From NCBI GenBank assembly GCA_947040595.1, contig CAMRBZ010000008.1, positions 1-33,858 on the forward strand: a stretch of DNA of 33,858 bases. Reading direction: 5' to 3'. Shown here piece by piece: positions 14,313 through 30,193 of this stretch. How positions within the stretch are numbered: position 1 is the first letter of the stretch; each line of letters opens with the position of its first letter. This DNA comes from an uncultured Enterovibrio sp. (lineage in GTDB: Bacteria; Pseudomonadota; Gammaproteobacteria; Enterobacterales; Vibrionaceae). The notes below the pieces were generated by a model that saw nothing but the letters and a program-made list of their open reading frames with translations, had not been told where the DNA came from and did not search any database. The position numbers and the translations under genes are program-made.

Positions 14313-14344
14313 TAAAAAAAGAGGGCGATGGCCCTCTTTTTTTA
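14313..14344. terminator. Bidirectional terminator between lptG and the RDD gene
   Basis: AAAAAAAGAGGGC pairs with GCCCTCTTTTTTT around GATG. The T tract on each strand allows termination of both convergent genes. Confidence 0.92.
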
Positions 14345-14352
14345 TGGCGAGA

Positions 14353-14865
14353 TCAGCGGGTTTTTATCAATTGGGTATCAGACATATAATCTTGAAAGGC
14401 CCGATTTTTTTCATCGAATAAAACAAGCACATTGCCAAGACCAAAGCCTGCGGTTGCGGCTCGTATCAAGGCTTGAGTGAATGTGATTTTGCCTCCAGTA
14501 TGGTTTACGACCTTGATCTTCCAAGTCTTCATTCCAATGGTTTGTCCTGTTGAATTACTCCAAAAATACGCGTAAAACCCCATCCCGACGCAAAAGAGAT
14601 ACAAACTGAAAAAAGGACTTAGGAAAGGGTGCCTTGAAAGGTAATCTCCAGCGTCCTGGTAGCCCTCAATAGAAAATCCGATTTGCATGGCAAGGGAAAG
14701 CAGGGCAATAAAGAGTCCTGCCGCAAGGATCTCAATGGCAAGAAGAATGATGAAATCATACAACCATGCGCCGAGCCGTTGAGAGAACGAGGCGCCATTA
14801 GGAAGAACGTTTACAGCAAGAATGGGAGACATGCTTTTTCCGATTAAAGAAGAAAATGAGGGCAT
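14353..14865 (-). CDS. RDD-family membrane protein
   Basis: 170-residue inner-membrane protein. The RDD signature is visible: the first helix region SQRLGAWLYDFIILLAIEIL (Arg...Asp), a second TM hairpin (SPFFSLYLFCVGMGFYAYFW), then TGQTIGMKTWKIKVV and a third hydrophobic stretch. RDD proteins are small membrane proteins with varied or unknown roles, some linked to ion transport. It converges on lptG and shares its terminator. The start is uncertain: an in-frame ATG at 14832 would shorten it by 11 residues, and neither start has a strong ribosome-binding site. Confidence 0.82.
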   Translation of the reverse strand: MPSFSSLIGKSMSPILAVNVLPNGASFSQRLGAWLYDFIILLAIEILAAGLFIALLSLAMQIGFSIEGYQDAGDYLSRHPFLSPFFSLYLFCVGMGFYAYFWSNSTGQTIGMKTWKIKVVNHTGGKITFTQALIRAATAGFGLGNVLVLFDEKNRAFQDYMSDTQLIKTR

Positions 14866-14972
14866 TTAAGCCGAAGAATAATAAGAAAATATCATATTTA
14901 TTGTGAACTTGCGTAAAATGATATCGGTTCGATTAAAAAACAAGCAAACGAACCTCTTTGCGTATTTAAGGC

Positions 14973-15000
14973 TTGTGTTCATCTTTAGGTTACGTATAAT
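14973..15000 (+). promoter_or_regulatory. Promoter of tRNA-Leu
   Basis: TTGTGT at 14973-14978 and a perfect TATAAT at 14995-15000, spaced by 16 bases, end 11 bases before the tRNA 5' end. Confidence 0.75.
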
Positions 15001-15011
15001 TGGCCTCACTT

Positions 15012-15096
15012 GCCCGGGTGGCGAAATCGGTAGACGCAGCGGATTCAAAATCCGCCGGAGAAATCTGTGTCGGTTCAAGTCCGACCCCGGGCACCA
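15012..15096 (+). tRNA. tRNA-Leu(CAA)
   Basis: The 85 bases form a complete class II cloverleaf. The acceptor stem GCCCGGG pairs with CCCGGGC. A D-arm is present. Anticodon stem GCGGA/TCCGC encloses loop TTCAAAA, giving anticodon CAA for UUG codons. A variable arm and a T-arm GGTTCAAGTCC follow, and CCA is encoded. The 3' part from 15041 lies in the 99-bp repeat shared with 26062-26160, so the prophage integrated here and restored the tRNA. Confidence 0.96.
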
Positions 15097-15139
15097 AATT
15101 AGAAAAAAGCCTCAATCGAAAGATTGAGGCTTTTTTTAT
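15041..15139 (+). repeat. attL: 99-bp direct repeat
   Basis: It starts at GGATTCAAAATCC (the anticodon stem-loop), runs through the tRNA 3' end and covers the whole downstream terminator. It is identical to 26062-26160 except for A at 15105 (G at 26126). The offset of 11,021 bases is the element length. Confidence 0.95.
15103..15137. terminator. Bidirectional terminator of tRNA-Leu and the phage late operon
   Basis: AAGCCTCAATC, GAAA, GATTGAGGCTT, with T runs on both strands. On + it ends the tRNA transcript. On - it lies directly after the last phage gene (stop at 15141). The attR copy (26124-26158) has G at 26126, which breaks the minus-strand T run. Confidence 0.88.
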
Positions 15140-15140
15140 T

Positions 15141-15254
15141 TTATTTTTTTTTGGTTTTACGTTTTGTTGTTGGCACTTTGACAACGCCGCCGCCTTTCTT
15201 AAATTTGTATCCTTTTTTTAATTTACCACTAGCAGTTAATCCGATTTTAGCCAT
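15141..15254 (-). CDS. Tiny very basic protein (37 aa), possible DNA-condensing virion peptide
   Basis: The protein begins MAKIGLTASGKLKKGYKFKK, continues through GGGVV and ends KRKTKKK. It has about 14 Lys plus one Arg, no acidic residues and no TM segment. GGAG lies ten bases upstream of the ATG. The start overlaps the stop of the upstream 57-aa gene by eight bases (ATGGCTAA). It is the last gene of the late operon, ending two bases inside the prophage from attL. The composition suggests nucleic-acid binding; that is inference only. I recognise no family. Confidence 0.7.
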   Translation of the reverse strand: MAKIGLTASGKLKKGYKFKKGGGVVKVPTTKRKTKKK

Positions 15255-15420
15255 TTTTCTTTATCTCCAAAACTGTAATTCGCTTATCATGCGAAATTAA
15301 TAATTCGCTGAAATGTTTATTTTGTTTAAAAATCTGATAACCGAGAAATGCAATTGCTGCAGATTCAATTGTAAAACCAAAATCTAAGGCATACTTAATA
15401 ATCGCTAACTCTGCTATCAT
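15247..15420 (-). CDS. Small phage membrane protein (57 aa)
   Basis: The protein starts MIAELAIIKYALDFGFTIES, with a hydrophobic stretch (AAIAFLGYQIF) near residues 21-31 and a charged C-terminal half (SHDKRITVLEIKKNG). The ATG follows the stop of the 38-aa gene after one base and the end overlaps the next start, so translation is coupled on both sides. Its own ribosome-binding site is weak. Probably an internal-membrane or lysis-related phage protein such as a holin or spanin partner; the family is not recognised. Confidence 0.65.
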   Translation of the reverse strand: MIAELAIIKYALDFGFTIESAAIAFLGYQIFKQNKHFSELLISHDKRITVLEIKKNG

Positions 15421-15421
15421 T

Positions 15422-15538
15422 TTATTTTTTCACGTTCGCATTGTCGCTTGTAGCGCTTATTTTCGATACAAAATAAGCAGACAATACAGCTGTTACAACG
15501 CTTAAAGTAACCGACATCAAAACCGTTTTTGTATTCAT
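15422..15538 (-). CDS. Small single-TM phage protein (38 aa)
   Basis: The protein starts MNTKTVLMSVTLSVVTAVLS and ends DNANVKK. One clear TM helix covers residues 5-24, followed by a short polar tail. The ATG overlaps the stop of the peptidoglycan hydrolase as ATGA, with AGGA eight bases upstream, which supports a real gene. Its position right after the hydrolase fits a holin or a virion-membrane peptide. No family recognised. Confidence 0.65.
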   Translation of the reverse strand: MNTKTVLMSVTLSVVTAVLSAYFVSKISATSDNANVKK

Positions 15539-15999
15539 GTTTTTATTCCTGCGAGTTCACAACCCTCGATAATTGAAGCGTGGCTATATACTTGCGCCCC
15601 GTTCTCAAATTTAATCATTGCCTTAACCAAAGAGGGTATATTTTTTTTGTTTAAATTATTATCGAGCGCGTTAACATTTAAATATTTAGAAACAAAATCA
15701 ATATATGAATTTGTTGGGTTTTCAGACCCTGGTGCCCATTTCTTAATTATCCCAGAAACGGAAGTTAACCCACTATCCATATAATTTTTAATAAGCTTAG
15801 CGCCTGCTCTAATTCCATATTTACTAGATGAGAACACACAAAAGCCTTTATTCTCTCCGCTTTGGCCTTCCCAGTCATTCGCTTTATTATAACGAATGTT
15901 TAACGGGTTATTGTTTCGAATACCTAGCGGCATTGAAGATCTAAGCATGAAGAAACAAACACCTGAAACAACAAAAAAAATAGAAACTTTTTTAATCAT
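15535..15999 (-). CDS. Phage peptidoglycan hydrolase (membrane-anchored, 'structural protein P5'-like)
   Basis: 154 residues. An N-terminal TM anchor (KVSIFFVVSGVCFFML) is followed by a domain with GIRNNNPLNIRYNKANDWEG, GFCVFSSSKYGIRAGAKLI, IIKKWAPGSENPTNSYIDFV and a C-terminal helix AMIKFENG. This pattern is common in phage virion muralytic proteins annotated as structural protein P5 and is thought to open the cell wall during entry or lysis. PM2 also carries a virion-associated lytic activity. The start overlaps the spike gene by eight bases and the stop overlaps the 38-aa gene, so it belongs to the late operon. Catalysis is inferred from the family. Confidence 0.82.
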   Translation of the reverse strand: MIKKVSIFFVVSGVCFFMLRSSMPLGIRNNNPLNIRYNKANDWEGQSGENKGFCVFSSSKYGIRAGAKLIKNYMDSGLTSVSGIIKKWAPGSENPTNSYIDFVSKYLNVNALDNNLNKKNIPSLVKAMIKFENGAQVYSHASIIEGCELAGIKT

Positions 16000-17338
16000 A
16001 GCTATTTTCTTTAAATTCTAAAATTAAACCATTCTTTTCCAAATCGTCAATACCTTTACATATCCAAAAGTCATGATTTCTTGGTATAAACTCTTTATAG
16101 TCAGATGAAAATACACCTTTTCTCAACTCATCAGAATAAATATATGTATCGTTATTGATTTTCTTTTTTAAAACGCTAGTGTCATATATTTCAGCATCAA
16201 GTATATAATCAGCGCCGAGAGCCGCAACACCTTGCAATCGTCTATTAATCAGACAAAAACCTTTTTCATTTAAAAGATAGTTGTGCAATGACGTGCCTCT
16301 TGCTGACTCTGTGAATATTAGATTCTCTTTAACTTCAACGCTCGGTATTGAATGCATCATATTATTAACTCTTAAATAAGCCAGAGCGCTCACAGCGGGA
16401 AATAACACAGTATCTTGGAAATAATACATTGAGCACATTTTAACGTCATTTAAATAATCATAATCATAATTATAATTAAAATCCACATTTAGATCTTCTC
16501 CCTCTTCCAAAAATGCGTAATTTGATAATAATGGAATATCTAAATCAGAATTATCCCAGTTTCCAGAGGACGGTGAAATAATTATTTTTGGTGCTCTATG
16601 AGTACAGAATATAACATGTGCTTTGTCATTCGTATAATTTCCCTCCAAAATCGGCTGTCTCATATACTCTAAACTTGATCGTCGCCAGCGATCAAAACCA
16701 TAGAGCCCGACGTCAACAGAACCCGTTCCTCTTCCGTCGCGCTTAAGTCGCATTTTTGAATTAAGAAAAAGATTCCTTCTTTTTTCTTTTTTTAGAACAG
16801 TCGTAGGAGGCGGCGCATCGGGGTTAATCACTTGAACTTTTAAAATATCATTTACAATAAAAGATTTAATTGTGTCTGGAATTACAACGTCTGGAATTAC
16901 AATTTCTGGAATTACAATTTCTGGAATTACAATTTCTGGAATTATAATTTCTGGAATCACAATATCTGGAATTATAATTTCATTTTCAAGAATGACCTTC
17001 ACAGGAGTTTGAATTGATGAGATTATAACTGGTGTTAATATTTCATCAACAACAACATCACCGCCGCCGCCTTCTTTTTGTTCTTTTATTCGGATGTCAA
17101 CTTCTGATAATTGCAATTCCCCGTAGATATCTGTTCCTGACTTATTTAATATCCTAAGCTCTTCATTTTTATATTTTGAAATGTCAATAGTATCAGAGCG
17201 TCTTAACTCAACATTTGAAAAGTCATCAGATTCTAAATAAACAGAATGAGATAACTCACGCATTATTAAAAATATATCTTTCTGACCAACAACAAATCTG
17301 TATTTCTCACCATCTTTCAATCTTAATATTCTTGCCAT
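15992..17338 (-). CDS. Candidate receptor-binding spike with IPE-repeat shaft
   Basis: 448 residues, no TM. An N-terminal beta-rich domain (1-90) is followed by a Gly hinge, then seven tandem five-residue units (IIPDI, VIPEI, IIPEI...) at about 121-155, a PPP linker, and a large C-terminal domain. That domain opens with NLFLNSKMRLKRDGRG and GLYGFDRWRR (190-220). This resembles the N-x-x-F-x-I-x-Q-R-G...Y-x-x-D-R-W start of receptor-binding modules in tailed-phage fibres. The ATG at 17338 overlaps the upstream stop as TAATG. PM2 has a separate vertex spike, P1; this gene is the best counterpart. Function is inferred from layout. Confidence 0.7.
   Translation of the reverse strand: MARILRLKDGEKYRFVVGQKDIFLIMRELSHSVYLESDDFSNVELRRSDTIDISKYKNEELRILNKSGTDIYGELQLSEVDIRIKEQKEGGGGDVVVDEILTPVIISSIQTPVKVILENEIIIPDIVIPEIIIPEIVIPEIVIPEIVIPDVVIPDTIKSFIVNDILKVQVINPDAPPPTTVLKKEKRRNLFLNSKMRLKRDGRGTGSVDVGLYGFDRWRRSSLEYMRQPILEGNYTNDKAHVIFCTHRAPKIIISPSSGNWDNSDLDIPLLSNYAFLEEGEDLNVDFNYNYDYDYLNDVKMCSMYYFQDTVLFPAVSALAYLRVNNMMHSIPSVEVKENLIFTESARGTSLHNYLLNEKGFCLINRRLQGVAALGADYILDAEIYDTSVLKKKINNDTYIYSDELRKGVFSSDYKEFIPRNHDFWICKGIDDLEKNGLILEFKENSYD
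16873..16980 (-). repeat. 15-bp tandem repeat in the spike gene
   Basis: Seven copies of CTGGAATTACAATTT-like units with exact 15-base spacing (CTGGA at 16876, 16891, 16906, 16921, 16936, 16951 and 16966). Each encodes one five-residue unit, so slippage would lengthen or shorten the shaft in frame. Confidence 0.9.
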
Positions 17339-17781
17339 TATTTCTTTTTCCAAAATTTCACAATAAGAACGAGGCCAACAATTGATGAAATGCCTAAAAC
17401 AATTTTTATCATTTGCTGATTTGTTTCTGATTGATTATCAGTCATTGCAGATTTAGCGAGTTCACTTGCAAATGATAATGTATCTTTTGCATTTGAAGCT
17501 GCTTGTCCTGCCCCAACATTAACAGAATCCAGCGCATTTTCGAATATATTCGAATTATTCTCTAATGCGCCCCCGACCACAGTTGTCATGCTTTCGATGA
17601 CATCACCAGCAAGATCTAAACTCCCTTCAACAGCGCCATGGTCTGTTGTTGTTGAGTTTATCGTTGAATTATTAACGCCTGAAATCATGGACCCAAGATT
17701 ATCACCTTGCGCCGCATTTGAACCGCTGGTATTTGTATTTGTCGTTACGTTCGTATTTGAACTTGCAGAATCGCCGCCCAT
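17338..17781 (-). CDS. Phage membrane protein with C-terminal TM and Lys tail (147 aa)
   Basis: Starts MGGDSASSNTNVTTNTNT. About 115 polar residues rich in Asn, Ser, Thr, Gly and Ala are followed by one TM helix (MIKIVLGISSIVGLVLIVKF) and the tail WKKK. Two neighbours (18156-18383 and 18598-18885) have the same design. The ATG at 17781 begins one base after the previous stop; an upstream TTG at 17793 is less likely. Probably inserted in the virion's internal membrane or linking it to the capsid. No sequence family recognised. Confidence 0.72.
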   Translation of the reverse strand: MGGDSASSNTNVTTNTNTSGSNAAQGDNLGSMISGVNNSTINSTTTDHGAVEGSLDLAGDVIESMTTVVGGALENNSNIFENALDSVNVGAGQAASNAKDTLSFASELAKSAMTDNQSETNQQMIKIVLGISSIVGLVLIVKFWKKK

Positions 17782-17782
17782 A

Positions 17783-18178
17783 TTACAATTCAACTCTTAT
17801 AACAAATTCTTGGCAATTAAGAGATTTGCATTCTCTAGATTCAACAAATTTATACTTCAAACCTAAAGAATTTAATTTTCTCAAAATAGAGCGCCTTGAA
17901 ATGTGTGCTCTAATTGTTTTAAATCCTCGTGACTTCGCTTGCGCTGAAATTAAATGCGCGCACTCTTCTAAATCACCAGAAAAAGCGCAAACAACAAGCT
18001 CAAAGCCTTCTGCTCTAAACATTACAATAGAATACTCATTTATATAAAAAACGCGTTCTTGACCTTTTAAAACCCTTTTTTCGGCTTCATTAAAATGAAG
18101 CCCGAGAATTGGTTTTAATGTATTTTTAACGCGCCCCCATGGCGCGATTTTAAAATTACTTCTTTTTTTTGAATGCAT
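17783..18178 (-). CDS. Soluble phage protein of unknown function, possible GNAT-like fold
   Basis: 131 residues, basic N-terminus (MHSKKRSNFKIAPWGRVKN), no TM. The C-terminal half alternates strands and helices: FELVVCAFSGD, then LISAQAKSRGFKTIRAHI, RRSILRKLNSLGLKYKFVE and QEFVIRVEL. That order is reminiscent of the second half of GNAT acetyltransferase folds, but I see no acetyl-CoA loop, so this is a weak hint. ATG 18178 has AGGTG seven bases upstream and overlaps the preceding gene by 23 bases. It is the only clearly soluble protein between the capsid and spike candidates; a minor capsid or vertex role is possible. Confidence 0.65.
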   Translation of the reverse strand: MHSKKRSNFKIAPWGRVKNTLKPILGLHFNEAEKRVLKGQERVFYINEYSIVMFRAEGFELVVCAFSGDLEECAHLISAQAKSRGFKTIRAHISRRSILRKLNSLGLKYKFVESRECKSLNCQEFVIRVEL

Positions 18179-18383
18179 AAAAAGCACCTACAACAACAAC
18201 ACCGACAATTAACCATGTCGGGATTGTAAAATTATTACCAAATTGAATTGAGCCGCCATTGAAGCCGCTCGAATTATTTGTTGTCGAGGTTGCAGTAGAA
18301 GGCCCGCCGCCGCCCATATCCAAGCCGCCAGCGCCGCCGCTAATTCCGCCGCCTCCAAGCGCACCCATCGCCGCCCCAATCAT
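18156..18383 (-). CDS. Gly-rich phage membrane protein with C-terminal TM (75 aa)
   Basis: A Gly-rich first half (MGALGGGGISGGAGG) and an Asn/Ser/Thr linker precede a single TM helix (WLIVGVVVVGAFYAF) and the tail KKKK. GGAG lies seven bases before the ATG, and the start overlaps the previous stop. Same architecture as its neighbours, consistent with a virion-membrane protein. The family is not recognised. Confidence 0.7.
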   Translation of the reverse strand: MIGAAMGALGGGGISGGAGGLDMGGGGPSTATSTTNNSSGFNGGSIQFGNNFTIPTWLIVGVVVVGAFYAFKKKK

Positions 18384-18592
18384 TTTACGACTCCAATAGT
18401 AATTGATGAAATATAAAGAGCGCCGCCAATTACTGATAGGATAATGACTCTATCAAGAAAGGACTCTGATTTTTGCGCAGCGTTCCCAGCGTTTTCTATT
18501 GCATCACCTGTGCTTTTCATTAAATCAGAAATGGATAAAACACCAGAAACGACAAACGCCCCCGCGATAATGGGGATAAATGGAAAAGGCAA
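18380..18592 (-). CDS. Phage membrane protein with two TM helices (70 aa, TTG start)
   Basis: Reads PFPFIPIIAGAFVVSGVLSI (TM1), a polar stretch (KSTGDAIENAGNAAQKSE), then VIILSVIGGALYISSITIGV (TM2). The best start is TTG 18592, five bases after the previous stop, with AAGGGG upstream. Longer readings to 18661 run inside the upstream gene and give a Cys/Trp-rich, non-membrane N-terminus. The stop overlaps the next ATG. Likely an internal-membrane protein. Confidence 0.62.
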   Translation of the reverse strand: MPFPFIPIIAGAFVVSGVLSISDLMKSTGDAIENAGNAAQKSESFLDRVIILSVIGGALYISSITIGVVK

Positions 18593-18597
18593 AACAA

Positions 18598-18885
18598 TTA
18601 CCCCTTTTTCTTTATTATCAAAGCGGCACCAATAATCACAATCACACCGCCAATCAACCAAGGAAAAACAGAGGCTTTATCTTTATTCGCATTAACTTTG
18701 TCTTTTATATCATCAGTGCTTTGCACTGCATCACTGACCTGTTGACCCGCGCCTGCCACAGATTCTGCAGTTCCTCCAAGCGAATCTGCAATATCGCCGA
18801 CAGCTTCAATTCCAGACTGCACTCCATCAACTACAGACCCAACAACAGACCCAACAGTATCGACGATTGAATCGAACCAGCTCAT
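18598..18885 (-). CDS. Phage membrane protein with C-terminal TM (95 aa)
   Basis: An amphipathic N-terminal half (MSWFDSIVDTVGSVVGSVVD) leads to a polar Asp/Ala/Gln stretch, then one TM helix (FPWLIGGVIVIIGAALII) and the tail KKKG. The ATG directly follows the capsid gene stop, with AAGGTAG upstream. Being next to the capsid gene suggests an abundant virion-membrane protein, comparable in place and size to the small membrane proteins of PM2. I see no sequence signature to confirm homology. Confidence 0.72.
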   Translation of the reverse strand: MSWFDSIVDTVGSVVGSVVDGVQSGIEAVGDIADSLGGTAESVAGAGQQVSDAVQSTDDIKDKVNANKDKASVFPWLIGGVIVIIGAALIIKKKG

Positions 18886-19683
18886 TTACGCTACCTTTTC
18901 AAGCCCTTCAATCAAGATTTCTATGCTTTGCACAACTTCTGTTGTATTTACACGAAAATAAAATTCAGAATTATGTTGCGTTGGTAAAACAAAATCGCGC
19001 ATAAATCCGTATTTCAACGGATCGAAATGAAAATAAACTGATTGCGGATTTTTACCTGCTCGAACGAGTTGAAAGTCAACAATATCTCGGTGATATTCTC
19101 CCTCTTCCCGTCCATCTCGTTTAATTTCAATCTTATCAATCTTGTCTGATTTGAAATGCATTCTTCGAATAAAACGATTCGGGCTTGACAATAAACCATG
19201 AAAATCGTTATCACCTGAAGCCGTTGCGGTCATTGTCTGCGTATATAGGCGGGGCAATAATTGACGAACAGCAACGGAAGGTGAAATTGTCGCAAATGTA
19301 TCAATTTGAATTGCTTTTCCGTCTGCAATTTTTGAAGACAACGTCACATCAAGTGTAATGTGATCGTTCATCATTGTAACAAGCGCAGTGGCCTGCACTG
19401 AGCCACGCTCTATATTTGAAAAATCCGAGAAAGGAATAACAAAATACCCTTCTTCAGGTTTGTTGCCCTGAAAACCTTCGAGCATGACTAAATGCCCTGA
19501 TGTGACATTATATATTTTGTCGTCATTGAGCGTAATTTCTACACGCTCCAACTCTTCTACACTTAAATTCGTTTTAAGTATAATTTGTTCATATGTGGCC
19601 CCCGTTGGCAATTTCAGTGTTGCTTTACCACCTTTTACCACACCAGAGAATGCACTTAATTTTCTTTCGATACAATTTTGCAT
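18886..19683 (-). CDS. Candidate double-jelly-roll major capsid protein
   Basis: 265 residues, no TM or signal peptide. The sequence alternates short beta-like segments and turns from end to end (TLKLPTGATYEQIILKTNL, VEITLNDDKIYNV, FYFRVNTTEVVQSIEILIEG). PM2's capsid protein P2 has 269 residues and two jelly rolls. The gene order ATPase, tiny TM protein, this gene, membrane proteins matches a tailless membrane phage. The ATG overlaps the upstream stop as TAATG. The KRDGR stretch is also found in the spike candidate, which may mean a shared strand or an old duplication. The capsid role is inferred from size, predicted strand content and context. Confidence 0.72.
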   Translation of the reverse strand: MQNCIERKLSAFSGVVKGGKATLKLPTGATYEQIILKTNLSVEELERVEITLNDDKIYNVTSGHLVMLEGFQGNKPEEGYFVIPFSDFSNIERGSVQATALVTMMNDHITLDVTLSSKIADGKAIQIDTFATISPSVAVRQLLPRLYTQTMTATASGDNDFHGLLSSPNRFIRRMHFKSDKIDKIEIKRDGREEGEYHRDIVDFQLVRAGKNPQSVYFHFDPLKYGFMRDFVLPTQHNSEFYFRVNTTEVVQSIEILIEGLEKVA

Positions 19684-19811
19684 TAGTCATTAAGTCCTAA
19701 GGTTTTATCAAGATCAAACGGCTGAAAATGATGAATCAAACCCATCAATACGAATGTAATAACTACAGTTCCTGCAATAATTTTTGCACTGCTTTGGCTT
19801 TTTTTATTCAA
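19683..19811 (-). CDS. Tiny single-TM protein upstream of the capsid gene (42 aa, TTG start)
   Basis: Reads NKKSQSSAKIIAGTVVITF, then VLMGLIHHFQPFDLDKTLGL and ND. One TM helix covers residues 10-26, between a basic N-terminus and an acidic tail. It starts at TTG 19811 with AAGGG six bases upstream, and its TAA overlaps the capsid ATG by one base (TAATG). That coupling is strong evidence for translation. It is the first gene of the structural operon after the terminator at 19900-19942. Probably a virion-membrane peptide. Confidence 0.68.
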   Translation of the reverse strand: MNKKSQSSAKIIAGTVVITFVLMGLIHHFQPFDLDKTLGLND

Positions 19812-19843
19812 ACCTGACCCTTTTTGTTTTTATTTAATAAGTG

Positions 19844-19885
19844 AAACCACCTTCATATAAAATTTATTTTAAATAAAGGTGGTTT
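19844..19885. repeat. 10-bp inverted repeat upstream of the structural operon
   Basis: AAACCACCTT (19844-19853) and AAGGTGGTTT (19876-19885) are perfectly complementary around a 22-base AT-only spacer. It lies in the short promoter space between the internal terminator and the capsid operon, so it may be an operator or an RNA hairpin in the late leader. Confidence 0.55.
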
Positions 19886-19899
19886 CTGAGTTCGAATAT

Positions 19900-19942
19900 T
19901 AAAAATAAAAAAACGGTTTTCGAGCAACCCCGAAAACCGTTT
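19900..19942 (-). terminator. Internal terminator between packaging and capsid operons
   Basis: AAACGGTTTTCG (19911-19922) pairs with CGAAAACCGTTT (19931-19942). The minus strand continues into TTTTTTTATTTTT. It separates the early/packaging genes from the structural genes and implies a second leftward promoter near 19815-19900. Confidence 0.85.
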
Positions 19943-19950
19943 CTTTTTTC

Positions 19951-19970
19951 AAATAACCTTTAGGTTATTT
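19951..19970. repeat. Palindrome AAATAACC-TTTA-GGTTATTT
   Basis: Perfect 8-bp arms. The core GGTTATT is the same motif that recurs at 21335-21411, 24590-24640 and 25991-26010 in this prophage, so it may be a binding site for a phage protein. Confidence 0.6.
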
Positions 19971-19991
19971 GTCTTTATTTTGTGAAGCTTG

Positions 19992-20054
19992 TCACACTTG
20001 CAAAAGTAAAACCATAAATAAAATAACACAAAAACACAGTTGCAATATATTCAT
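19992..20054 (-). CDS. Possible 20-residue hydrophobic peptide
   Basis: The frame starts ATG AAT ATA and encodes MNILQLCFCVILFMVLLLQV, hydrophobic throughout. It begins seven bases after the ATPase stop, with AAAGG upstream at loose spacing, and ends before the internal terminator. It could be a membrane peptide or a chance frame. Confidence 0.3.
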   Translation of the reverse strand: MNILQLCFCVILFMVLLLQV

Positions 20055-20060
20055 TAAAAA

Positions 20061-20747
20061 TCAGCCTTTAAACGTAAATTTACCATAATCAAACTCTCCG
20101 CGCTTATGAGCATCTGTTTTTATTATGTACTCCAGCTTTTCAAGCTTTGCTATAGCTTCAGCGTCTAATCCGAGTTCTTTTGATAAATAAATTGCGTCGT
20201 TCTCACGCTCCTGATATCCAATCCATTTAACTGCACAATTTCCTATGACCGTCTTACCGACTTCTTGCCCTCTTTGAAAAACACAATGAGTGCGCAACCC
20301 AAACTTACGGCCGATTCGAATTAGATCACTAACATAACCGTCCATTTTTCCTGACGTGTCGCAATACTTCGCTAATTCCTCAAGCACAACATTTAAAGGC
20401 TGTTTAGTTGCATCGCCGCATGACCATGCAAGTCCACAGAACAATTCAAAGTCGCCTTTTTCAACGCGGCCATTAAAACCACGAGCAATCTTGAATGGTT
20501 TTCCTAAAGTTCTAGCTTTAAATAGATTTTCTGCGAAATCTTCCCAGCTATAATATGTAAAAACTTTTTCTCCTTTAAAGTTGTCGGCGTAGTCACCAAA
20601 AGGATCAAAGAATACTGCGCAATCATCAGAAGCTATATTCAATTGTTTGACAGCTGTTGTCTTACCGCTGCCAGAAGAGCCAACATACATAGCATTTAAA
20701 CAACTTAATGCATTATTATTTTTTTCTGGATCAACAATATCTATCAT
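20061..20747 (-). CDS. Genome-packaging ATPase (P9/FtsK-HerA type)
   Basis: 228 residues, close to the length of PRD1 and PM2 P9. Walker A is VGSSGSGKTT (residues 22-31). FFDPFGDYADN follows the next strand. Walker B is NVVLEELAKY (119-128), a hydrophobic strand with two Glu. FQRGQEVGKT (157-166) fits the conserved Gln/Arg sensor region of packaging ATPases. Known: this family pumps DNA into capsids of tailless, membrane-containing double-jelly-roll viruses. The start overlaps the upstream stop as ATGA. It is too short and lacks the membrane and translocation domains of FtsK. Zot-like inovirus assembly ATPases are an alternative, but there is no C-terminal TM here. Confidence 0.85.
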   Translation of the reverse strand: MIDIVDPEKNNNALSCLNAMYVGSSGSGKTTAVKQLNIASDDCAVFFDPFGDYADNFKGEKVFTYYSWEDFAENLFKARTLGKPFKIARGFNGRVEKGDFELFCGLAWSCGDATKQPLNVVLEELAKYCDTSGKMDGYVSDLIRIGRKFGLRTHCVFQRGQEVGKTVIGNCAVKWIGYQERENDAIYLSKELGLDAEAIAKLEKLEYIIKTDAHKRGEFDYGKFTFKG

Positions 20748-21178
20748 GCTGCTTCCTTATTCAGATCTTGTAGTGCTAAATCTTCTTCTTTATACAGCTT
20801 AACCTGTGCAATCGCGCTCATCCCCAAAGTACCAGCGGATTTAATTGCCATGATTTCCTCTTGATATTGAGATAAGAAAGATGGCAATAGAATTCCATAT
20901 TTCATCAAAAGCGGCGCGAAATCCTTAACTGCCTCATTTTTCAATGCTTCATCAAAAGTAATTCGTTTATCGATAAATGTTTGTAATGCTTTCTCGATAG
21001 CCCAGACAGCCGCTTTCGCTTCGTTTTCAACACATACAGTATCAAACTCTGCTTTCTTGGTGTCTGCTTGCTCTCGTTCGCTTTCTGTTAAACCTGAGTT
21101 GTTTGCAGCATTTTTCAAGGCACTTAGCATAGGTAAAAAATGAGCATCTATTTCAGTATCGGCCCATGGTTCAACCAC
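20744..21178 (-). CDS. Helical soluble phage protein, unknown function
   Basis: 144 residues, mostly helical and acidic, no TM: SALKNAANNSGLTESEREQ, AAVWAIEKALQTFIDKRI and LALQDLNKEAA. GTG start at 21178 with GGGGGTGAG upstream, overlapping the previous stop by eight bases. Its own stop overlaps the ATPase ATG (ATGA). Direct coupling to the ATPase suggests a packaging or assembly partner. I do not recognise a family. Confidence 0.7.
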   Translation of the reverse strand: MVEPWADTEIDAHFLPMLSALKNAANNSGLTESEREQADTKKAEFDTVCVENEAKAAVWAIEKALQTFIDKRITFDEALKNEAVKDFAPLLMKYGILLPSFLSQYQEEIMAIKSAGTLGMSAIAQVKLYKEEDLALQDLNKEAA

Positions 21179-21614
21179 GTCTCACCCCCACAGAATGCCC
21201 GATCAACAAGCCCGCAGCAGCAGAGAGTCCACAACACATAGCCCAAAACCCTGTAGAAAAGGGTTTTTCAAACGGTTCTTCAATCTCAATATCCATTCGT
21301 AACTTACTGATTTTATTGTCAGTAACCGATTCTGGGTTATTTTGTACTTCCAAAGGGTTTTCAATAACCAAATCTTGGTTATTTTGTATTTCTAAAGTGT
21401 TTTCAATAACCGTTTTCTCTAAATTCATCTTGCATTTCTCGATTGAAATAACCATGTTATTTTTAATAAATTGTTGTCGTTTAAGTCCGCCACCTTGGGT
21501 CTTCCCGCAAATACACGATGTGTAGAAATTCCCAACTTTTTGGCCGCCGCACTCAAGAACTGTCGCGATACTTTCACAAGCAGCACAGTATAAAAAACCG
21601 ACTTCTTTAGCCAT
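21171..21614 (-). CDS. Zinc-ribbon phage protein with C-terminal TM
   Basis: 147 residues starting MAKEVGFLYCAACES. A Cys cluster (CAAC at 10-13, then C22, C34 and C36 in TSCICGK) looks like a zinc ribbon or binuclear Cys site. A duplicated segment follows (VIENTLEIQNN, then VIENPLEVQNN), coded by two 42-bp DNA repeats, and then a TM helix near the end (WAMCCGLSAAAGLLIG). I set the start at ATG 21614, which overlaps the upstream stop by eight bases; a TTG at 21677 would overlap that gene by 71 bases. The combination suggests a DNA- or protein-binding factor tethered to the membrane, perhaps in assembly. Confidence 0.72.
   Translation of the reverse strand: MAKEVGFLYCAACESIATVLECGGQKVGNFYTSCICGKTQGGGLKRQQFIKNNMVISIEKCKMNLEKTVIENTLEIQNNQDLVIENPLEVQNNPESVTDNKISKLRMDIEIEEPFEKPFSTGFWAMCCGLSAAAGLLIGHSVGVRRG
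21331..21414 (-). repeat. Two 42-bp direct repeats carrying GGTTATT...AATAACC
   Basis: Units at 21331-21372 and 21373-21414 are near-identical. Each contains GGTTATT and AATAACC as an inverted pair about 21 bases apart. They lie inside the zinc-ribbon gene but share the motif of the operator-like repeats elsewhere in the prophage. Confidence 0.75.
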
Positions 21615-21885
21615 TTTCCCCACACATACTTTCTTTAAGTTCCTTAATTTCTTTTTTCTGATTATGGTTGTCTTCAAATAAATACATAATTATCGATTTT
21701 GAATAATCAAGTTCTTCGCTCGCAATATCGAGCATTTTTACCAATGGCTTCATTTCTTTTGCCGCTGACTTAGTTAAAGGATTCATTGATGAGGACATTT
21801 CATTATGAATACGTTTCAATTCCCGCTGTTGCAATTCTCTACTACGACATTTTTTTTCAAAAAGCTTAATCAACTCACTTTTCAT
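21607..21885 (-). CDS. Small helical phage protein (92 aa)
   Basis: A charged, coiled-coil-like protein: KLFEKKCRSRELQQRELKRI at the N-terminus and NHNQKKEIKELKESMCGENG at the C-terminus. No TM. The ATG lies inside the end of the upstream gene (11-base overlap) and the stop overlaps the zinc-ribbon gene start. No family recognised; an accessory role in replication or assembly is possible from position only. Confidence 0.65.
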   Translation of the reverse strand: MKSELIKLFEKKCRSRELQQRELKRIHNEMSSSMNPLTKSAAKEMKPLVKMLDIASEELDYSKSIIMYLFEDNHNQKKEIKELKESMCGENG

Positions 21886-22111
21886 TTTTCAATTCACTTA
21901 AAATAAAAGCAGTTTCACTTAAGAAAAGAATTGTGTATTTTTGATTTATTAATTCTTTGGCTTCATTTTCTTCTATTTGTAAATGCCCCATACTTTTTAG
22001 GCCTTCTATTCCATCAACTTCATGTTCACAAAAACCCTCAGGAGCAACAAGAAGCTCTTTCCTAAAATCATTTTTAAAAAAACGTGAACATGGTGCGCTT
22101 GTAATAATCAT
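21875..22111 (-). CDS. Hypothetical phage protein (78 aa)
   Basis: Starts MIITSAPCSRFFKNDFRKEL. Mixed charge, with no clear TM and no motif I recognise. It has the strongest ribosome-binding site of the element (GGAGG seven bases before the ATG), which suggests it opens a new translational block after the 215-base gap that follows rep. Confidence 0.65.
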   Translation of the reverse strand: MIITSAPCSRFFKNDFRKELLVAPEGFCEHEVDGIEGLKSMGHLQIEENEAKELINQKYTILFLSETAFILSELKNEK

Positions 22112-22326
22112 TTAAATCCTCCAAAAATTAAAAATCGTGTTTTGTTTCTGTCTTTTAATGTTATCGGCCTTCGCGTTGCTTCACTCTCAATTCACCAGAT
22201 ACAAGCTCTCTGACCTGACAACAACGGACCAATTAAGCACTGGACCCCTTTCGCCGACCAACCCGACAACTTCATAAGAGCAGACTCCAGAGCTTGGTTA
22301 CAGTTATTTTCAGTGCTCCAAGTTTT
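22112..22326. other. Gap downstream of rep; candidate replication or promoter region
   Basis: 215 bases without a gene, higher in GC than its flanks (for example GGCCTTCGCG and the ACCCC stretch). It is the only sizeable gap in the early operon, placed between rep and the next block. It may hold a promoter for the packaging block or a rolling-circle origin. I see no decisive nick-site hairpin. Confidence 0.35.
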
Positions 22327-23964
22327 TTAAATTAACAATGTGTCAAAAAATGATTTTCGAGCACTTTTGTATTCATTAATTGCAACTTCTCTAATATCTG
22401 AATAGTCAATATTATTTTTAGAATGCAAATTAAAGCCACGAGCACCTGATGCCCACGCCAAAAAGCCAAAACATTTGTCTTCAGCATTTGCACCATCAAA
22501 ATGCAAGAGCGGATGATCTTTGCTTGCGCTAATACCAATTGCTTTTATTTCTTCTTTTGCTGATTTGATATCAGCATCTTGTTGTGATAACAGGCCGCGA
22601 AGCTTAAACACTTTTTTTTCAATAAATGCAGGGTTTGCAGATTTGTTGTTTTTAGTTATCGCCAAAGCTTTTGCGTATTCTTTTGTTTTGATTTTGGCTC
22701 TAATCAATTTAGATACCAGCGGCGCTTTGTTTTTATCAAGTCTTCGTTTCAATTCTGCAATGATTGCTCCCATATGCTCTGCTTCGAAAGAAGCGATGCA
22801 TTCCCAGGGTAATGCACGACTACATTTAGCTATGTTATATCTATTTCCACGTATCAAGCCTTGATCTGCATTTTTGCCTTTAGCTGCATACCCAACAGCT
22901 TTGATAATATATTTTCCCGCTGCATCCTTGTGCTTAATTCGTTCAAGTGTTGCAAAGCCATTTCCCCAAAGTTTCTCAAGCCGCGCAGCCCACGCTCTAA
23001 AAAGAGGGCGTGGAACATTCCACCTTAGCAATATATGTACGTGTGGATTTGGCTCACCGTCTTTGTTTGGGGGACATTCAGCAACCCATATATAATCAAA
23101 CTCATCTGAATTTGCTTGTATATCGATTGGCTCCAACAACTCAAGAACTTGACCCTTGTTATCTGTTTGATAACAATTTTTCATTCCTCTTTGGTGCACT
23201 TTTTTTGCACTGTCTAAAAACCTGGAAACTTCTTTACCAATTATTGTTTCTGGTACCTCCCCATTCGCACAAAATAATTTTTCACGTTGTTCTTTGGTAA
23301 ACGTGAGCGTTAAAAATGTTGTAAATCCATTGCGTACAGCCGCGACATATGCAGCGCTTTCAAATATTTTTGATACTGCTCTTTTTGTTAACGATTCACT
23401 AAAACGTTCACCAACATTTGATTCTGGTGCATCGCAAACACTTGGTTGAACAAAAACACCGACTCGAAATTGTTTTGACCATTCGCGATGCATTACACGA
23501 ACAGCTCTTGATCTTGAATGCGACTTTTGAAAGCGCAATTGTGCTTTGTAATCAAGCTTTTCAGGCGTATCAAAAACATCATCATACCCACAGCCGAGCT
23601 TACCCCCATCATCCTTGTGTGCTCGAACCGCGTCCATTTTCGAAGACAATCTAAGTGCATCCAGTTTCTTATTTATCTTTTTAATCTGTGTCGGACTTTT
23701 GCACCCATAGACAAGCCTAGTCTCTCCGGCGCTTTGCGCCGCCGCTGCGCGGGCTGAGTCCGCTGAAATCTTTGTGTATTTCTTATGGTAATAATCGGCT
23801 CTAATAAATGAATGCTCTTCATTTCTAAACCAAGATTTAGGCGTTTCACCGGCGGGCGGATTTTTTAAGCGATGTGCTAAAACATCGCCAGCGACGACTG
23901 CGCTGGCGATGTGGGTTATTTCAAGATCGCTTAATGGCGTAAAACCATTATCGTATGTTTTCAT
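22327..23964 (-). CDS. Rolling-circle replication initiator (HUH endonuclease)
   Basis: 545 residues. The three Rep motifs are in order: motif 1 TTFLTLTFTKEQR (about 215-228), motif 2 NPHVHILLRW with the His pair at 308 and 310, and motif 3 GKYIIKAVGYAAKGK with Tyr352, Lys355 and Tyr359. Two tyrosines at this spacing fit superfamily I Reps, as in phiX174 gpA, P2 gpA and PM2 P12, which nick and religate the origin. A Lys-rich C-terminal region of about 150 residues has no domain I recognise, and no helicase domain is visible. The ATG follows the previous stop after one base. It is the largest gene of the element. Confidence 0.9.
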   Translation of the reverse strand: MKTYDNGFTPLSDLEITHIASAVVAGDVLAHRLKNPPAGETPKSWFRNEEHSFIRADYYHKKYTKISADSARAAAAQSAGETRLVYGCKSPTQIKKINKKLDALRLSSKMDAVRAHKDDGGKLGCGYDDVFDTPEKLDYKAQLRFQKSHSRSRAVRVMHREWSKQFRVGVFVQPSVCDAPESNVGERFSESLTKRAVSKIFESAAYVAAVRNGFTTFLTLTFTKEQREKLFCANGEVPETIIGKEVSRFLDSAKKVHQRGMKNCYQTDNKGQVLELLEPIDIQANSDEFDYIWVAECPPNKDGEPNPHVHILLRWNVPRPLFRAWAARLEKLWGNGFATLERIKHKDAAGKYIIKAVGYAAKGKNADQGLIRGNRYNIAKCSRALPWECIASFEAEHMGAIIAELKRRLDKNKAPLVSKLIRAKIKTKEYAKALAITKNNKSANPAFIEKKVFKLRGLLSQQDADIKSAKEEIKAIGISASKDHPLLHFDGANAEDKCFGFLAWASGARGFNLHSKNNIDYSDIREVAINEYKSARKSFFDTLLI

Positions 23965-23965
23965 T

Positions 23966-24217
23966 TTAAATTTTGTTCAATACGCGTGCAGTTACCATTA
24001 GCTCATCAATTGTTATCCCTAGTTCATAAGCAATTAGCTCTATCAACTTAACATCAAAAGTCACACAGAATGCCAAGGCTTTTTCGAGACTTTTACCGCT
24101 AAGATCATAAACTTTTGATGCAACATAACCCGTGTTTGTTGGGAATCTTTGCTCAAGTGCTCTAACGATTGCTTTTGAAACTCGATTATCTATACCTTTC
24201 TTATCAATGCTTTTCAT
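23966..24217 (-). CDS. Small phage protein upstream of rep (83 aa)
   Basis: Starts MKSIDKKGIDNRVSKAIVRA. Helical. The region ASKVYDLSGKSLEKALAF and the C-terminal YELGITIDELMVTA segment look like phage DNA-binding or regulatory proteins but match no motif firmly. AAGAGA lies upstream, the start overlaps the previous stop as ATGA, and the stop is two bases from rep. Possibly a replication regulator. Confidence 0.65.
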   Translation of the reverse strand: MKSIDKKGIDNRVSKAIVRALEQRFPTNTGYVASKVYDLSGKSLEKALAFCVTFDVKLIELIAYELGITIDELMVTARVLNKI

Positions 24218-24354
24218 TTTTTTATTCTCTTGGCTTTGAATTCAATTTCATTTCTTCGGCGTTCTGTTTTTGCGCTTTTATATTGAGAGCGAAGAACGGC
24301 CACCTTTAGATCTTTGATTTTTTCAATGTTGAAAAAAAAATCATCAGATTTCAT
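24214..24354 (-). CDS. Tiny basic phage protein (46 aa)
   Basis: Starts MKSDDFFFNIEKIKDLKVAV and ends ERRRNEIEFK plus AKRIKK, a charged helix. It overlaps the upstream gene by 11 bases and the downstream ATG by four (ATGA). The unbroken frame between two coupled genes supports it despite a weak ribosome-binding site. Confidence 0.55.
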   Translation of the reverse strand: MKSDDFFFNIEKIKDLKVAVLRSQYKSAKTERRRNEIEFKAKRIKK

Positions 24355-24571
24355 TTGTTTTAAACTCATTGGATTGTTTAACTAAATCACCAAAACAAAC
24401 CTGATTGCTTTTTAACCGCTCCTCTAATTCAACAAGATTTATAATACGCGTACCCTTATCATTTTCTCTTGGCACTTCAGGTATCGTTCCTTCGTCCATT
24501 CGCAATCGTACGAATTTCGCGCTTAGTCCGGTTTCATCACAAAACCGTTTGATAGTTTGCATTAATGGCAT
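24344..24571 (-). CDS. Small DNA-binding protein, first gene of the leftward operon
   Basis: 75 residues starting MPLMQTIKRFCDETGLSAKF. A winged-helix/MerR-like pattern is visible: KRFCDETGLSAKFVRLRMDEG, then GTRIINLVELEERL. Such small proteins in temperate phages act as excisionase or Cro/Cox-type switches. AGGA lies eight bases before the ATG. It faces the XRE repressor across the repeat-rich control region, the classic place for the lytic-side regulator. Confidence 0.72.
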   Translation of the reverse strand: MPLMQTIKRFCDETGLSAKFVRLRMDEGTIPEVPRENDKGTRIINLVELEERLKSNQVCFGDLVKQSNEFKTNEI

Positions 24572-24589
24572 TGTGCTATCCTGTAGGGT

Positions 24590-24640
24590 CGAATAACTGG
24601 CGGTTATTCGTGGTTATTTCTGGTTATTTCTGGTTATTTC
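24590..24640. promoter_or_regulatory. Control-region repeats: palindrome plus four 10-bp GGTTATTTC units
   Basis: CGAATAAC-TGGC-GGTTATTCG (24590-24610) merges into a tandem of CGGTTATTCG and three TGGTTATTTC units in exact 10-base phase (24601-24640). One helical turn per unit is typical of cooperative protein binding. Two more units lie at 25991-26010 next to attR, in inverted orientation. Candidates are integrase arm sites, excisionase sites or an operator. Confidence 0.75.
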
Positions 24641-24651
24641 TAGATTGTAGT

Positions 24652-24684
24652 GCGTTAGCACGACGCGCATGGTAATGCTAACGC
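24652..24684. promoter_or_regulatory. Inverted repeat operator before the repressor gene
   Basis: GCGTTAGCA (24652-24660) and TGCTAACGC (24676-24684) are perfect 9-bp arms with a 15-base spacer. It lies 20 bases before the XRE gene in the divergent region. Minus-strand TACAAT at 24644-24649 could be the -10 of the leftward promoter, though I see no good -35. Confidence 0.7.
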
Positions 24685-24703
24685 GCGACAGGAGTCAATA
24701 AAA

Positions 24704-24994
24704 TTGTTAGGAAAAAGAATTAAATCCATAAGGCTTGCTGAAGATATGACTCAGACAGAATTCTCTCAACTTGTTGATATTTCAATACATTCTCTCAGGT
24801 GTTACGAGCAAGGCACACGCTCATTAAATGAAGAAAATTTATTAAAAGTCACATGTAGCGAGCAATTAGGGAAATATGCATATTGGTTGACAACAGGTAA
24901 GGTTTTACCGTCATCGGGACAGATTTGTCCTGATTTTTCAATTCAAGAGCTATGCGGAATTATAAGCAAAATACAAACAGCAAAGAGAGCATGA
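24704..24994 (+). CDS. XRE-family phage repressor
   Basis: 96 residues. The N-terminal helix-turn-helix is typical: LGKRIKSIRLAEDMTQTEFS, then QLVDISIHSLRCYEQGTRSL. The YWLTTGKVLP segment resembles other short phage repressors. Start TTG 24704, with AGGAG nine bases upstream. It diverges from the leftward lytic operon across two repeat systems, so it probably holds the lysogenic state and regulates itself. There is no RecA-cleavage peptidase domain, so induction may not follow the lambda model. Confidence 0.85.
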   Translation: MLGKRIKSIRLAEDMTQTEFSQLVDISIHSLRCYEQGTRSLNEENLLKVTCSEQLGKYAYWLTTGKVLPSSGQICPDFSIQELCGIISKIQTAKRA

Positions 24995-25031
24995 AAACGT
25001 ACATCAGAAAATTTTATGCGTGGGGGGTTTT

Positions 25032-25997
25032 GTGATTAAACAATGCACTGAAGGTTATTATTCAGATCTTGACGCATCAATGATCTTTAAAAAAGAAAGG
25101 GATGCCCAAAAACACGAAATAACAGTGACTTTTCGTAAACAACGAGAAAACCCTCACCTTAAAGACAATCGAACCTTACATAACATCATTGACATATGGT
25201 ACACCATGCATGGCAAGACATTACGTGATCACGTTAGGTTGCGCTCTTTGCTTTATCGTATGAGTGAACGAATGAATAACCCTATTTCAAGTGAGCTTAC
25301 AGGTGAATGTTTTGCAGCGTATAGGGAAGAGCGAACAAGGGAGGTCAGTACGACAACAGCAAACAGAGAACACGCTTACCTTCGAGCAATGTTTAATGAA
25401 CTGCGTCGCTTAGGTGTCATAAAATATGATAACCCAGTAAAAGATATTCGTAAATTTAAGGAAAGAGAGGGCGAGTTAAGATACTTGACTCATAACGAAA
25501 TTAGCACTTTGCTTTTTGCATGCAATCAATCGCCAAATCAGTCACTAAAGCACATAGTCCATGTTTGCCTTGCAACTGGATCAAGATGGAGTGAAGCAGA
25601 GTCACTCAAAGGCAGCCAAATTGCAGCAGGCCGCATTACTTTTCTTAATACTAAGTCAGGTAGAAATCGCAGTGTTCCAATATGCTCAAAACTGTTTGAC
25701 GATTTAAAACTTTTCGGAAAAGGCAAATCGTCAATATTCACGGCATCAATGAGCGCATTTAGGCGTGTAATTTATGAAACAAAAATATTTTTACCACGGG
25801 GCCAGCTTAGCCACGTATTGCGTCATACCTTTGCAAGTCACTTCGTCATGCAAGGCGGTAACGTCGTTGTACTACGGGATATTTTAGGACATAGCGAAAT
25901 AACAACCACTATGCGATATGCCCACTTATCTCCAGAGCATCTGAGTGATGCGGTCAGATTAAACCCTTTAAACGCGCACATACACGGTGAGAAATAA
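25032..25997 (+). CDS. int: Tyrosine integrase
   Basis: 321 residues. The core-binding domain (about 45-125) and catalytic domain carry all expected residues: Arg185 (ATGSRWSEAESL), Lys208 (NTKSGRNRSVPI), His261 and Arg264 (SHVLRHTFASHF), His287 (LGHSEITT) and Tyr296 (TMRYAHLS). It catalyses recombination between attP and the tRNA-Leu site. I prefer GTG 25032, which follows a GGGGGG run; in-frame GTG 25020 would add four residues. A 14-codon frame (24991-25035) links the repressor stop (ATGA) to this start (GTGA), so the three may be translationally coupled. It lies 65 bases from attR. Confidence 0.93.
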   Translation: MIKQCTEGYYSDLDASMIFKKERDAQKHEITVTFRKQRENPHLKDNRTLHNIIDIWYTMHGKTLRDHVRLRSLLYRMSERMNNPISSELTGECFAAYREERTREVSTTTANREHAYLRAMFNELRRLGVIKYDNPVKDIRKFKEREGELRYLTHNEISTLLFACNQSPNQSLKHIVHVCLATGSRWSEAESLKGSQIAAGRITFLNTKSGRNRSVPICSKLFDDLKLFGKGKSSIFTASMSAFRRVIYETKIFLPRGQLSHVLRHTFASHFVMQGGNVVVLRDILGHSEITTTMRYAHLSPEHLSDAVRLNPLNAHIHGEK

Positions 25998-26010
25998 CCA
26001 GAAATAACCA
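25991..26010. promoter_or_regulatory. Two GAAATAACCA units beside attR
   Basis: Two exact 10-base units (inverse complement of TGGTTATTTC) overlap the end of int and stop about 50 bases before attR. They match the cluster at 24601-24640. Position near the crossover site suggests arm-type recombination sites. Confidence 0.65.
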
Positions 26011-26061
26011 GAAACGGCACAATTAAAAGTTATAAGCCATTGATTTAACTCCCTCTGTTGT

Positions 26062-26160
26062 GGATTCAAAATCCGCCGGAGAAATCTGTGTCGGTTCAAG
26101 TCCGACCCCGGGCACCAAATTAGAAGAAAGCCTCAATCGAAAGATTGAGGCTTTTTTTAT
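26062..26160 (+). repeat. attR: 99-bp direct repeat with tRNA-Leu 3' fragment
   Basis: Duplicate of 15041-15139: anticodon stem-loop, tRNA 3' half with CCA, and terminator hairpin. One mismatch (G at 26126). The preceding bases do not continue the tRNA, so this copy is not a functional tRNA gene. Confidence 0.95.
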
Positions 26161-26394
26161 GTGTTTTCATGGGACCAATCAAATTACAAGCTGCAGGGGT
26201 AACATATCGGCTTGATTCCAACGATCTTGAATATCCTGAATTTTACTTTTAATTCAAGATCTTAACTATCATTTCGGGTTGGCGGAGAATTTTATTAATT
26301 GTAACTCCTGTTTGATGGGTTCCGTTTTCATTGCTAAATATTTAATTTATTTGATTTGTGCAGCCTAACTTCTTGCATGCATTATTCATGACTA

Positions 26395-26517
26395 TACCCA
26401 AGACACTTGAAGTTGCGCGCCTGCAGCAAGTGAGTGAAAGCTCTGAGCATAGATGGACGATGTGATTGGGCTGAGCGAGAGCAGTCAACACCCACGCACC
26501 TTCAAAGGCGACGGGGA
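26395..26517 (+). repeat. MITE copy
   Basis: 123 bp from TACCCAAGACACTTGAAG to AAAGGCGACGGGGA, with TA on the left. It is close to copy 1. Confidence 0.85.
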
Positions 26518-27040
26518 TGTATCCATGCTTTCTGATTTGCCTTTAATAGGCTCAAATTAAAAGATTAAAGAGGGAAAATGCTTATTTGAATCCGTTGCTG
26601 GGAATGGGCAAAATCGAATCAAAGTGTGATGAGGTGACGCTTTAGTGGGTTTGAATCATTCTTGAAGGATGAAAAAGTTTGGGATATCGATCTTCAGTGC
26701 GCTTTATTCAATATAAGCGATGAGTGGATAAAAGTGTCTTCACTGTCGAACAGCGCAAGAAAGTGAGCTGCATCACAAGGCTTGAATAAAATCAAAACTT
26801 CATCTCTAAATGGGATCTATATCGTAAAGATAAAATTACCTGTCTTTGTTTTGTCAATTAATTCTGGGAGAAATAGAAATAACTCGGTATTATTATTTGG
26901 ACGAAATAATTTTATTTTTGTTAATTTATTTTTTCATTATTGATACCTTGTATTTTATTTTTGTTGGTTTATCCGTTAGATAAACGGCCTCTTAATACCT
27001 TTTCAAAAATAAGCGGATATAAATGCTTTTTTTTGTGTTT

Positions 27041-27069
27041 TCCGACTCCAATGAGTCGGATTTTTTTTA
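27041..27069 (+). terminator. Orphan intrinsic terminator
   Basis: CCGACTC-CAAT-GAGTCGG followed by ATTTTTTTT. The stem and T run are well formed, yet no coding gene precedes it for several hundred bases, so it may end a small RNA or be left from a lost gene. Confidence 0.75.
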
Positions 27070-27337
27070 TTTAAATCCCATTCAACATATCCAAGATATT
27101 TTGCAACTTTACTCTCATTAAACGATCATTTTATTCAAATCCGTCTTTGTGTATATGCATTCGATTCGATTCTATTCGAGCGGAAATGCTGTATGTTTAA
27201 GCTTGATCTGGCAGGGGTTTTCTTTAAGTTATTGTTTTTCAAATCTTATTACGATGAGACGTGGATTGTTTTTTAAATCGGAATAGGTTTTTTGAATGCT
27301 CTGTTTTACTTTTTCATCAAGTGTGCTTTAAGATATT

Positions 27338-27930: not shown

Positions 27931-28093
27931 CGAGTGAGTGGAATGGGTATGACTGAGGAAGATCTTGAAAACAGGTTAATTTTTAACGCAATGGAGACGA
28001 GAATCTGGTCTCTTTGGTGTGATTTTTATATAATGATCTTTTTTAAAATGGGATGCTTGATTTGACTTCACAAAAGGAATGCATTCTCTTTTA

Positions 28094-28341: not shown

Positions 28342-28342
28342 T

Positions 28343-28544
28343 AAACAGGAAAGGGACAATTCATCAATTTTTTTATTCATTCTCGCAAATTCTTCTCTAA
28401 TCGTATGATCACAATTAGCATTGGATTTTTTTTTTTATTATAAATTACAATTTTCTTCTCGTTTTAAAGGTATTTTATCAGCAACATCAGGTGATGTATT
28501 ACTGAGTGATTGCTACAGGGCAATATTTGTAATTTGGAGAGACC
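28343..28544. other. Upstream region of the DedA gene
   Basis: 200 AT-rich bases. The minus strand contains a short open stretch (DHTIREEFARMNKKIDEL) running into the MITE, which may be the remnant of another gene. The DedA promoter should be here, but I see no clear boxes. Confidence 0.35.
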
Positions 28545-29222: not shown

Positions 29223-29287
29223 TTGGATCTTTAAAAGGCCTCAAATAGCATCCGGTCTTTACTTTCCAAGAAACAAAAATATTTTTA

Positions 29288-30183: not shown

Positions 30184-30193
30184 TATTTTAAAT

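Follow-up and report, generated by a model that had tools for sequence, protein, structure and literature searches.

A divergent major capsid protein of the PM2 family in a provirus at a tRNA-Leu gene of an uncultured Enterovibrio

The window, a 33,858-nucleotide stretch of DNA from an uncultured Enterovibrio sp. (contig CAMRBZ010000008.1), carries an integrated element flanked by two 106-bp direct repeats that are 96% identical. These flanking repeats, together with the integrase gene and the tRNA site, define a provirus of 11,021 bp (Table 1). When the provirus is removed, the joined flanks align without a break over about 145 bases to 14 further genomes from the same genus, an alignment that is consistent with an empty integration site. 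Decamer repeats of GGTTATTTCT are found at 24602-24641, upstream of the repressor gene, and an inverted copy lies just past the integrase gene (25990-26014); they are possible candidates for recombination-directionality or repressor binding sites. NO16, a cultured temperate relative placed in 'Asemoviridae', integrates at dif via XerCD (PMC9966536). Integration at dif by the host XerCD, a trait of the NO16 group, is absent here, and the provirus has its own tyrosine integrase and att repeats at tRNA-Leu.

The structural and packaging genes follow the order of PM2, namely P9, P7, P2, P3, P4, P8, gp j, P1, and P5. Sequence homologues of PM2 proteins (AF155037) occupy the matching places for P9 (4e-11), P8 (3e-8), gp j (6e-12), and P5 (4e-25, with a PM2 ORF that overlaps the P5 gene), and the counterparts of P7, P3, P4, and P1 are assigned solely by position and size. 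In PM2-like prophages, the P2 and P9 genes form a block with a short P7-type ORF and a late promoter region between them, and in PM2-like elements this promoter region lies in the ATPase-P7 gap (PMC1950889). The same split block, a feature of PM2-like prophages (Vinavirales), is present in the window; a strong intrinsic terminator-like hairpin is found in the gap, the putative place of the late promoter. The packaging ATPase is about 41% identical to those of Vibrio tailless phages.

The 453-aa protein at the P1 position is a candidate vertex spike. Its residues 5-120 match the spike-position genes of Vibrio phages and of the loci L024/L019, and its gene contains a 15-bp tandem repeat (16875-16981, about 7 copies) that encodes an Ile-Pro-rich five-residue repeat. 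Predicted alone, the protein gave a meaningless model (pLDDT 29). The conserved N-terminus and the pentapeptide repeat are accompanied by a distinct C-terminal part, and the gene, at 81.7% versus the sister provirus described below, is among the more divergent ones. From its sequence, the protein looks like a spike with a conserved N-terminal anchor, a pentapeptide-repeat stalk, and a receptor-binding head. The 57-aa protein that closes the late block sits in the position of a lysis protein, and its putative role is read from that position only.

Table 1. Features of the provirus and its integration site (positions in the window; KD, Kyte-Doolittle mean)
Feature	Position	Strand	Evidence or remark
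tRNA-Leu(CAA) gene	15012-15096	+	ARAGORN
att repeat, host side	15041-15146		overlaps tRNA-Leu(CAA) gene; 96% identical to 26062-26167
57-aa small protein, late-block end	15247-15420	-	conserved in sister provirus L033
PM2 P5-like protein, endolysin/transglycosylase-type family matches	15535-15999	-	phrog_873 3e-46
453-aa protein, PM2 P1 (spike) position	15992-17353	-	gene order; candidate vertex spike
PM2 gp j-like protein, C-terminal TM segment	17338-17793	-	gp j 6e-12; KD 2.28 at 129
134-aa conserved structural-block protein	17783-18187	-	NO16-like phage ORF 6e-15
PM2 P8-like membrane protein	18156-18383	-	PM2 P8 3e-8; NO16-like 1e-14
Small membrane protein, PM2 P4 position	18380-18661	-	position; KD 2.37
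Small membrane protein, PM2 P3 position	18598-18885	-	position; KD 2.63; L023 homologue 3.5e-5
Major capsid protein, PM2 P2 family	18886-19683	-	PF18628, PF25513, phrog_8536; PM2 P2 1e-14; 2vvf Z 25.4
42-aa single-TM protein, PM2 P7 position	19683-19811	-	TTG start; KD 2.08; TAATG-coupled to capsid gene
Intrinsic terminator-like hairpin, 18 pairs	19907-19946	-	ATPase-P7 gap
FtsK/HerA-type packaging ATPase, PM2 P9 counterpart	20061-20747	-	phrog_2666 9e-30; PM2 P9 4e-11
HUH rolling-circle replication initiator, NO16-type	22327-23964	-	PF23343 1e-7; phrog_38601 3e-112
Helix-turn-helix repressor	24704-24994	+	PF01381/PF12844
Tyrosine integrase	25020-25997	+	PF00589 2e-19, PF24624
Second att repeat, provirus far end	26062-26167		106-bp direct repeat

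The capsid ORF begins with ATG and encodes 265 amino acids. A first reading of this stretch, made from the sequence only, had proposed a major capsid protein here on the basis of its length, close to the 269 amino acids of PM2 P2, the lack of a TM segment, the location between the packaging ATPase and membrane-protein genes, and TAATG coupling to a tiny TM gene, and each of these observations was borne out. The coordinates and length are as given; the best 19-residue Kyte-Doolittle mean is 0.86, so that a TM segment is not apparent; the gene has the ATPase gene upstream and small TM-type genes downstream; and at the TAATG junction the stop of the 42-aa ORF overlaps the capsid ATG. Moreover, the capsid gene differs from that of the sister provirus by 10 nucleotides; all 10 lie at the third position of a codon, and the protein sequence is unaltered. 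This wholly silent divergence shows that the ORF encodes a protein and is under strong selection.

By sequence, the protein is a member of the PM2 P2 coat protein family, since both Pfam domain profiles exceed their curated cut-offs. The pair P2_N and P2_C (ids PF18628 and PF25513) represents the two domains of PM2 coat protein P2; P2_N covers residues 7-120 (8.1e-30, 103.6 bits) and P2_C residues 144-263 (7.7e-36, 123.1 bits), against a cut-off of 25 in each case. P2_C also weakly matches the N-terminal half (22.5 bits), as expected because the two barrels are related. Residues 7-265 match PHROG 8536, 'major head protein' (6e-55), and no NCBIfam model for the capsid protein was found. Family matches of 1e-30 to 1e-55 are well beyond what chance would give. 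The sequence-only reading had seen no obvious identity to named capsid families; the profiles, in fact, match P2_N, P2_C, and PHROG 8536 clearly. Identity to PM2 P2 itself is about 19%. A single-sequence phmmer search of the PDB gave PM2 P2 at E 0.045, which is below significance and merely suggestive; therefore, a family profile built from an alignment of 13 relatives was used. This profile matches, over nearly the full length, PM2 P2 (1.1e-14) and 9t9v, 'Double jelly roll capsid protein' (8.7e-12). The matched segment of 9t9v is identical in the NO16-like phage capsid, and 9t9v is thus probably the NO16 capsid. Scanned against viral_contigs as a single protein, the window capsid had 0 matches, and its closest phage homologue gave one locus; further scans, started from relatives, yielded 15 usable and distinct loci, most of them from one sub-branch, which served as the alignment source for the fold model.

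The AlphaFold2 monomer, with eight sequences in its alignment, is a strand-rich model (pLDDT 83.6, pTM 0.82) whose two jelly-roll barrels superpose on those of PM2 P2. In the first barrel, residues 88-96 have a pLDDT below 50, and the second barrel has weaker stretches (residues 221-240, about 58-72). The top Foldseek match is PM2 P2 (E 1.2e-18, TM 0.81), followed by the capsid proteins of PRD1, STIV, PR772, and PBCV-1. Alignment with VIA-align gives Z 25.4 to PM2 P2 (2vvf; 2.9 A over 256 residues), Z 20.6 to STIV, Z about 19 to PRD1-type proteins, and Z about 12 to cellular double-jelly-roll enzymes of the DUF2961/GH172 type; the best structure matches are all double-jelly-roll proteins. The fold check of the monomer proposed with the sequence-only reading therefore gave the double-jelly-roll major capsid protein that it had expected, closest to PM2 P2. 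A single jelly roll, an HK97 fold, and a helical protein, named there as refuting outcomes, were looked for in the model and not found; these folds are excluded by the model together with the family and structure matches.

The first list of PM2-like prophages dates from 2007 (PMC1950889), and the PM2 group was extended in 2018 (PMC5894146). Among 296 sampled Vibrionaceae genomes, 87 carry P2_C above its cut-off. The closest deposited phage capsids are those of tailless Vibrio cyclitrophicus prophages, with 40-42% identity over 96-97% of the protein; a note in the deposited records calls their genes PM2 'Major capsid protein P2', and these prophages are among those reported in PMC11630473. On the tree, 100/100 support unites the window capsid with the capsids of tailless Vibrio prophages in one clade. 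The tip branch of the window capsid is long (1.37), few forks are starred, and no sister group is fixed within the clade.

The provirus shares different features with each of the known systems. PM2 (Corticovirus; P2 is PDB 2vvf/2w0c) resembles it in capsid fold and length, in the order of the genes flanking the capsid gene, and in the homologous ATPase, P8, gp j, and P5, but differs in capsid sequence and has an unrelated replication initiator. In contrast to the integrated element in the window, PM2 has been described as strictly lytic (PMC1950889). The V. cyclitrophicus prophages (PQ189304, PQ189331, and others) have a syntenic structural block and a similar ATPase but are larger, at 13-15 kb, with accessory genes; few integration hotspots, dif among them, are reported for such prophages (PMC11630473), whereas the window provirus uses tRNA-Leu. 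NO16 and NO16-like phages share the Rep type, a similar genome size, and the structural block. However, the window capsid does not group with that of NO16: the two are about 18% identical and fall in opposite starred halves of the midpoint-rooted tree. The genomes of PM2 and an NO16-like phage measure 10,079 and 10,593 bp, respectively, compared with the 11,021 bp of the provirus.

A sister provirus is found in another uncultured Enterovibrio MAG of the same genus (CAMRDW010000020.1; L033/L018). It occupies the same tRNA-Leu site and encodes an identical capsid protein, yet the two elements carry different replication initiators. The window Rep has the motifs HVHILL at 308 and YAAK at 359 and is 40% identical to that of NO16-like phages; no significant match to PM2 P12, the Corticovirus-type initiator, was found. 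In contrast, the sister Rep (L033 6102-7892) is of the Phage_GPA type and matches PM2 P12 at 3e-77, and direct comparison of the two Reps found no significant similarity. DNA identity between the proviruses is 91% over 14336-22123 and about 82% over 23966-26160, with the differing Rep gene in between; flanking the swap it is 95% on one side and 80% on the other. Uncoupling of virion and replication modules is a known feature of the PM2 group (PMC1950889), and the swap between two proviruses with a shared site and the same capsid protein is a clean natural example of it in a close pair. Divergence is also uneven elsewhere. Identity reaches 95-99% in the capsid gene and the early genes, compared with 73-82% for the spike candidate, the P5-type gene, and the 134-aa gene (within 15535-18187); such a pattern suggests that the host-contact part has undergone recombination or diversifying selection. 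Vibrio records of 36-37 kb, e.g., ValB1MD-2 (MT662115) at 24772-26436, also contain a Rep of the window type (43% identity). These records far exceed the size of a tailless phage, and they may be composites with a tailless prophage, or this Rep may be common to other phages.

Taken together, these results make it almost certain that the ORF encodes the major capsid protein of a PM2-group virus (order Vinavirales) that is tailless, temperate, and integrated; the link of the protein to PM2 P2 rests on profiles, fold, and synteny. By analogy with PM2, three capsid copies would form a pseudo-hexagonal capsomer with its two barrels upright on the shell, and many capsomers would tile an icosahedral shell above an inner membrane that the small TM proteins in the P3, P4, P7, and P8 positions would hold. 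The P9-type ATPase would load the genome, the 453-aa protein would serve as the vertex spike, and the P5-type enzyme would open the peptidoglycan. Once excised, the circle would be copied by the HUH Rep in rolling-circle mode; the tyrosine integrase would move the provirus in and out of the tRNA-Leu site and thereby provide for lysogeny.

The sequence-only reading had gone further and suggested that the protein might define a new branch of double-jelly-roll capsids. That it founds such a branch, unrelated by sequence to the named families, is very improbable, even though the closest capsid homologue outside the sister species is just about 41-42% identical, the tree leaves its exact place inside the clade loose at the end of a long tip branch, and the viral_contigs scans with it and with its closest phage homologue were nearly empty. 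As a new family, the capsid is refuted by the strong Pfam and PHROG matches, by the deposited Vibrio phage relatives of about 40% identity noted as PM2 P2, and by its fully supported grouping with tailless Vibrio prophage capsids. The call of function was right and the claim of novelty wrong: the capsid is a divergent, fairly deep, unnamed member of the known PM2 family, and judged from its sequence it would at most form an unnamed branch within the PM2 group. The chance that it is a double-jelly-roll protein with another role, i.e., a minor capsid or vertex protein or a DUF2961/GH172-type enzyme, cellular or viral, is smaller still. The cellular enzymes do share the fold, but PM2 P2 scores double their Z; in addition, the gene adjoins the packaging ATPase within a virus block, and Pfam/PHROG-type family matching recognised no second capsid-type protein in the provirus.

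A further possibility, that the provirus is a defective remnant whose capsid protein is out of use, is unlikely, though not negligibly so. The element is known from two assemblies only; however, its gene set is full, its att repeats are intact, its frames are open throughout, and the capsid gene changes relative to the sister provirus are purely silent. The provirus is likely still active. It probably represents, with somewhat better than even confidence, an unnamed PM2-group lineage of genus level or deeper in Enterovibrio-like hosts, marked by capsid identity of at most about 42% outside the sister species, tRNA-Leu integration, and the exchange of replication modules between otherwise near-identical proviruses. 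The window capsid leaves the picture of capsid evolution unchanged. With this provirus, the tailless membrane phages, a group that tools made for tailed phages often overlook, gain a small, temperate, complete member and are extended to an Enterovibrio-like host.

The host chromosome on either side of the provirus has features of its own. At 4745-9682, it encodes a 1645-aa inverse autotransporter with invasin-type and Big_1 repeats, which is adhesin-like. The other flank (26393-33596), like L033 1-2300, contains many short repeats of about 60-140 bp with 75-90% identity, probably a dispersed intergenic repeat of the host genome.
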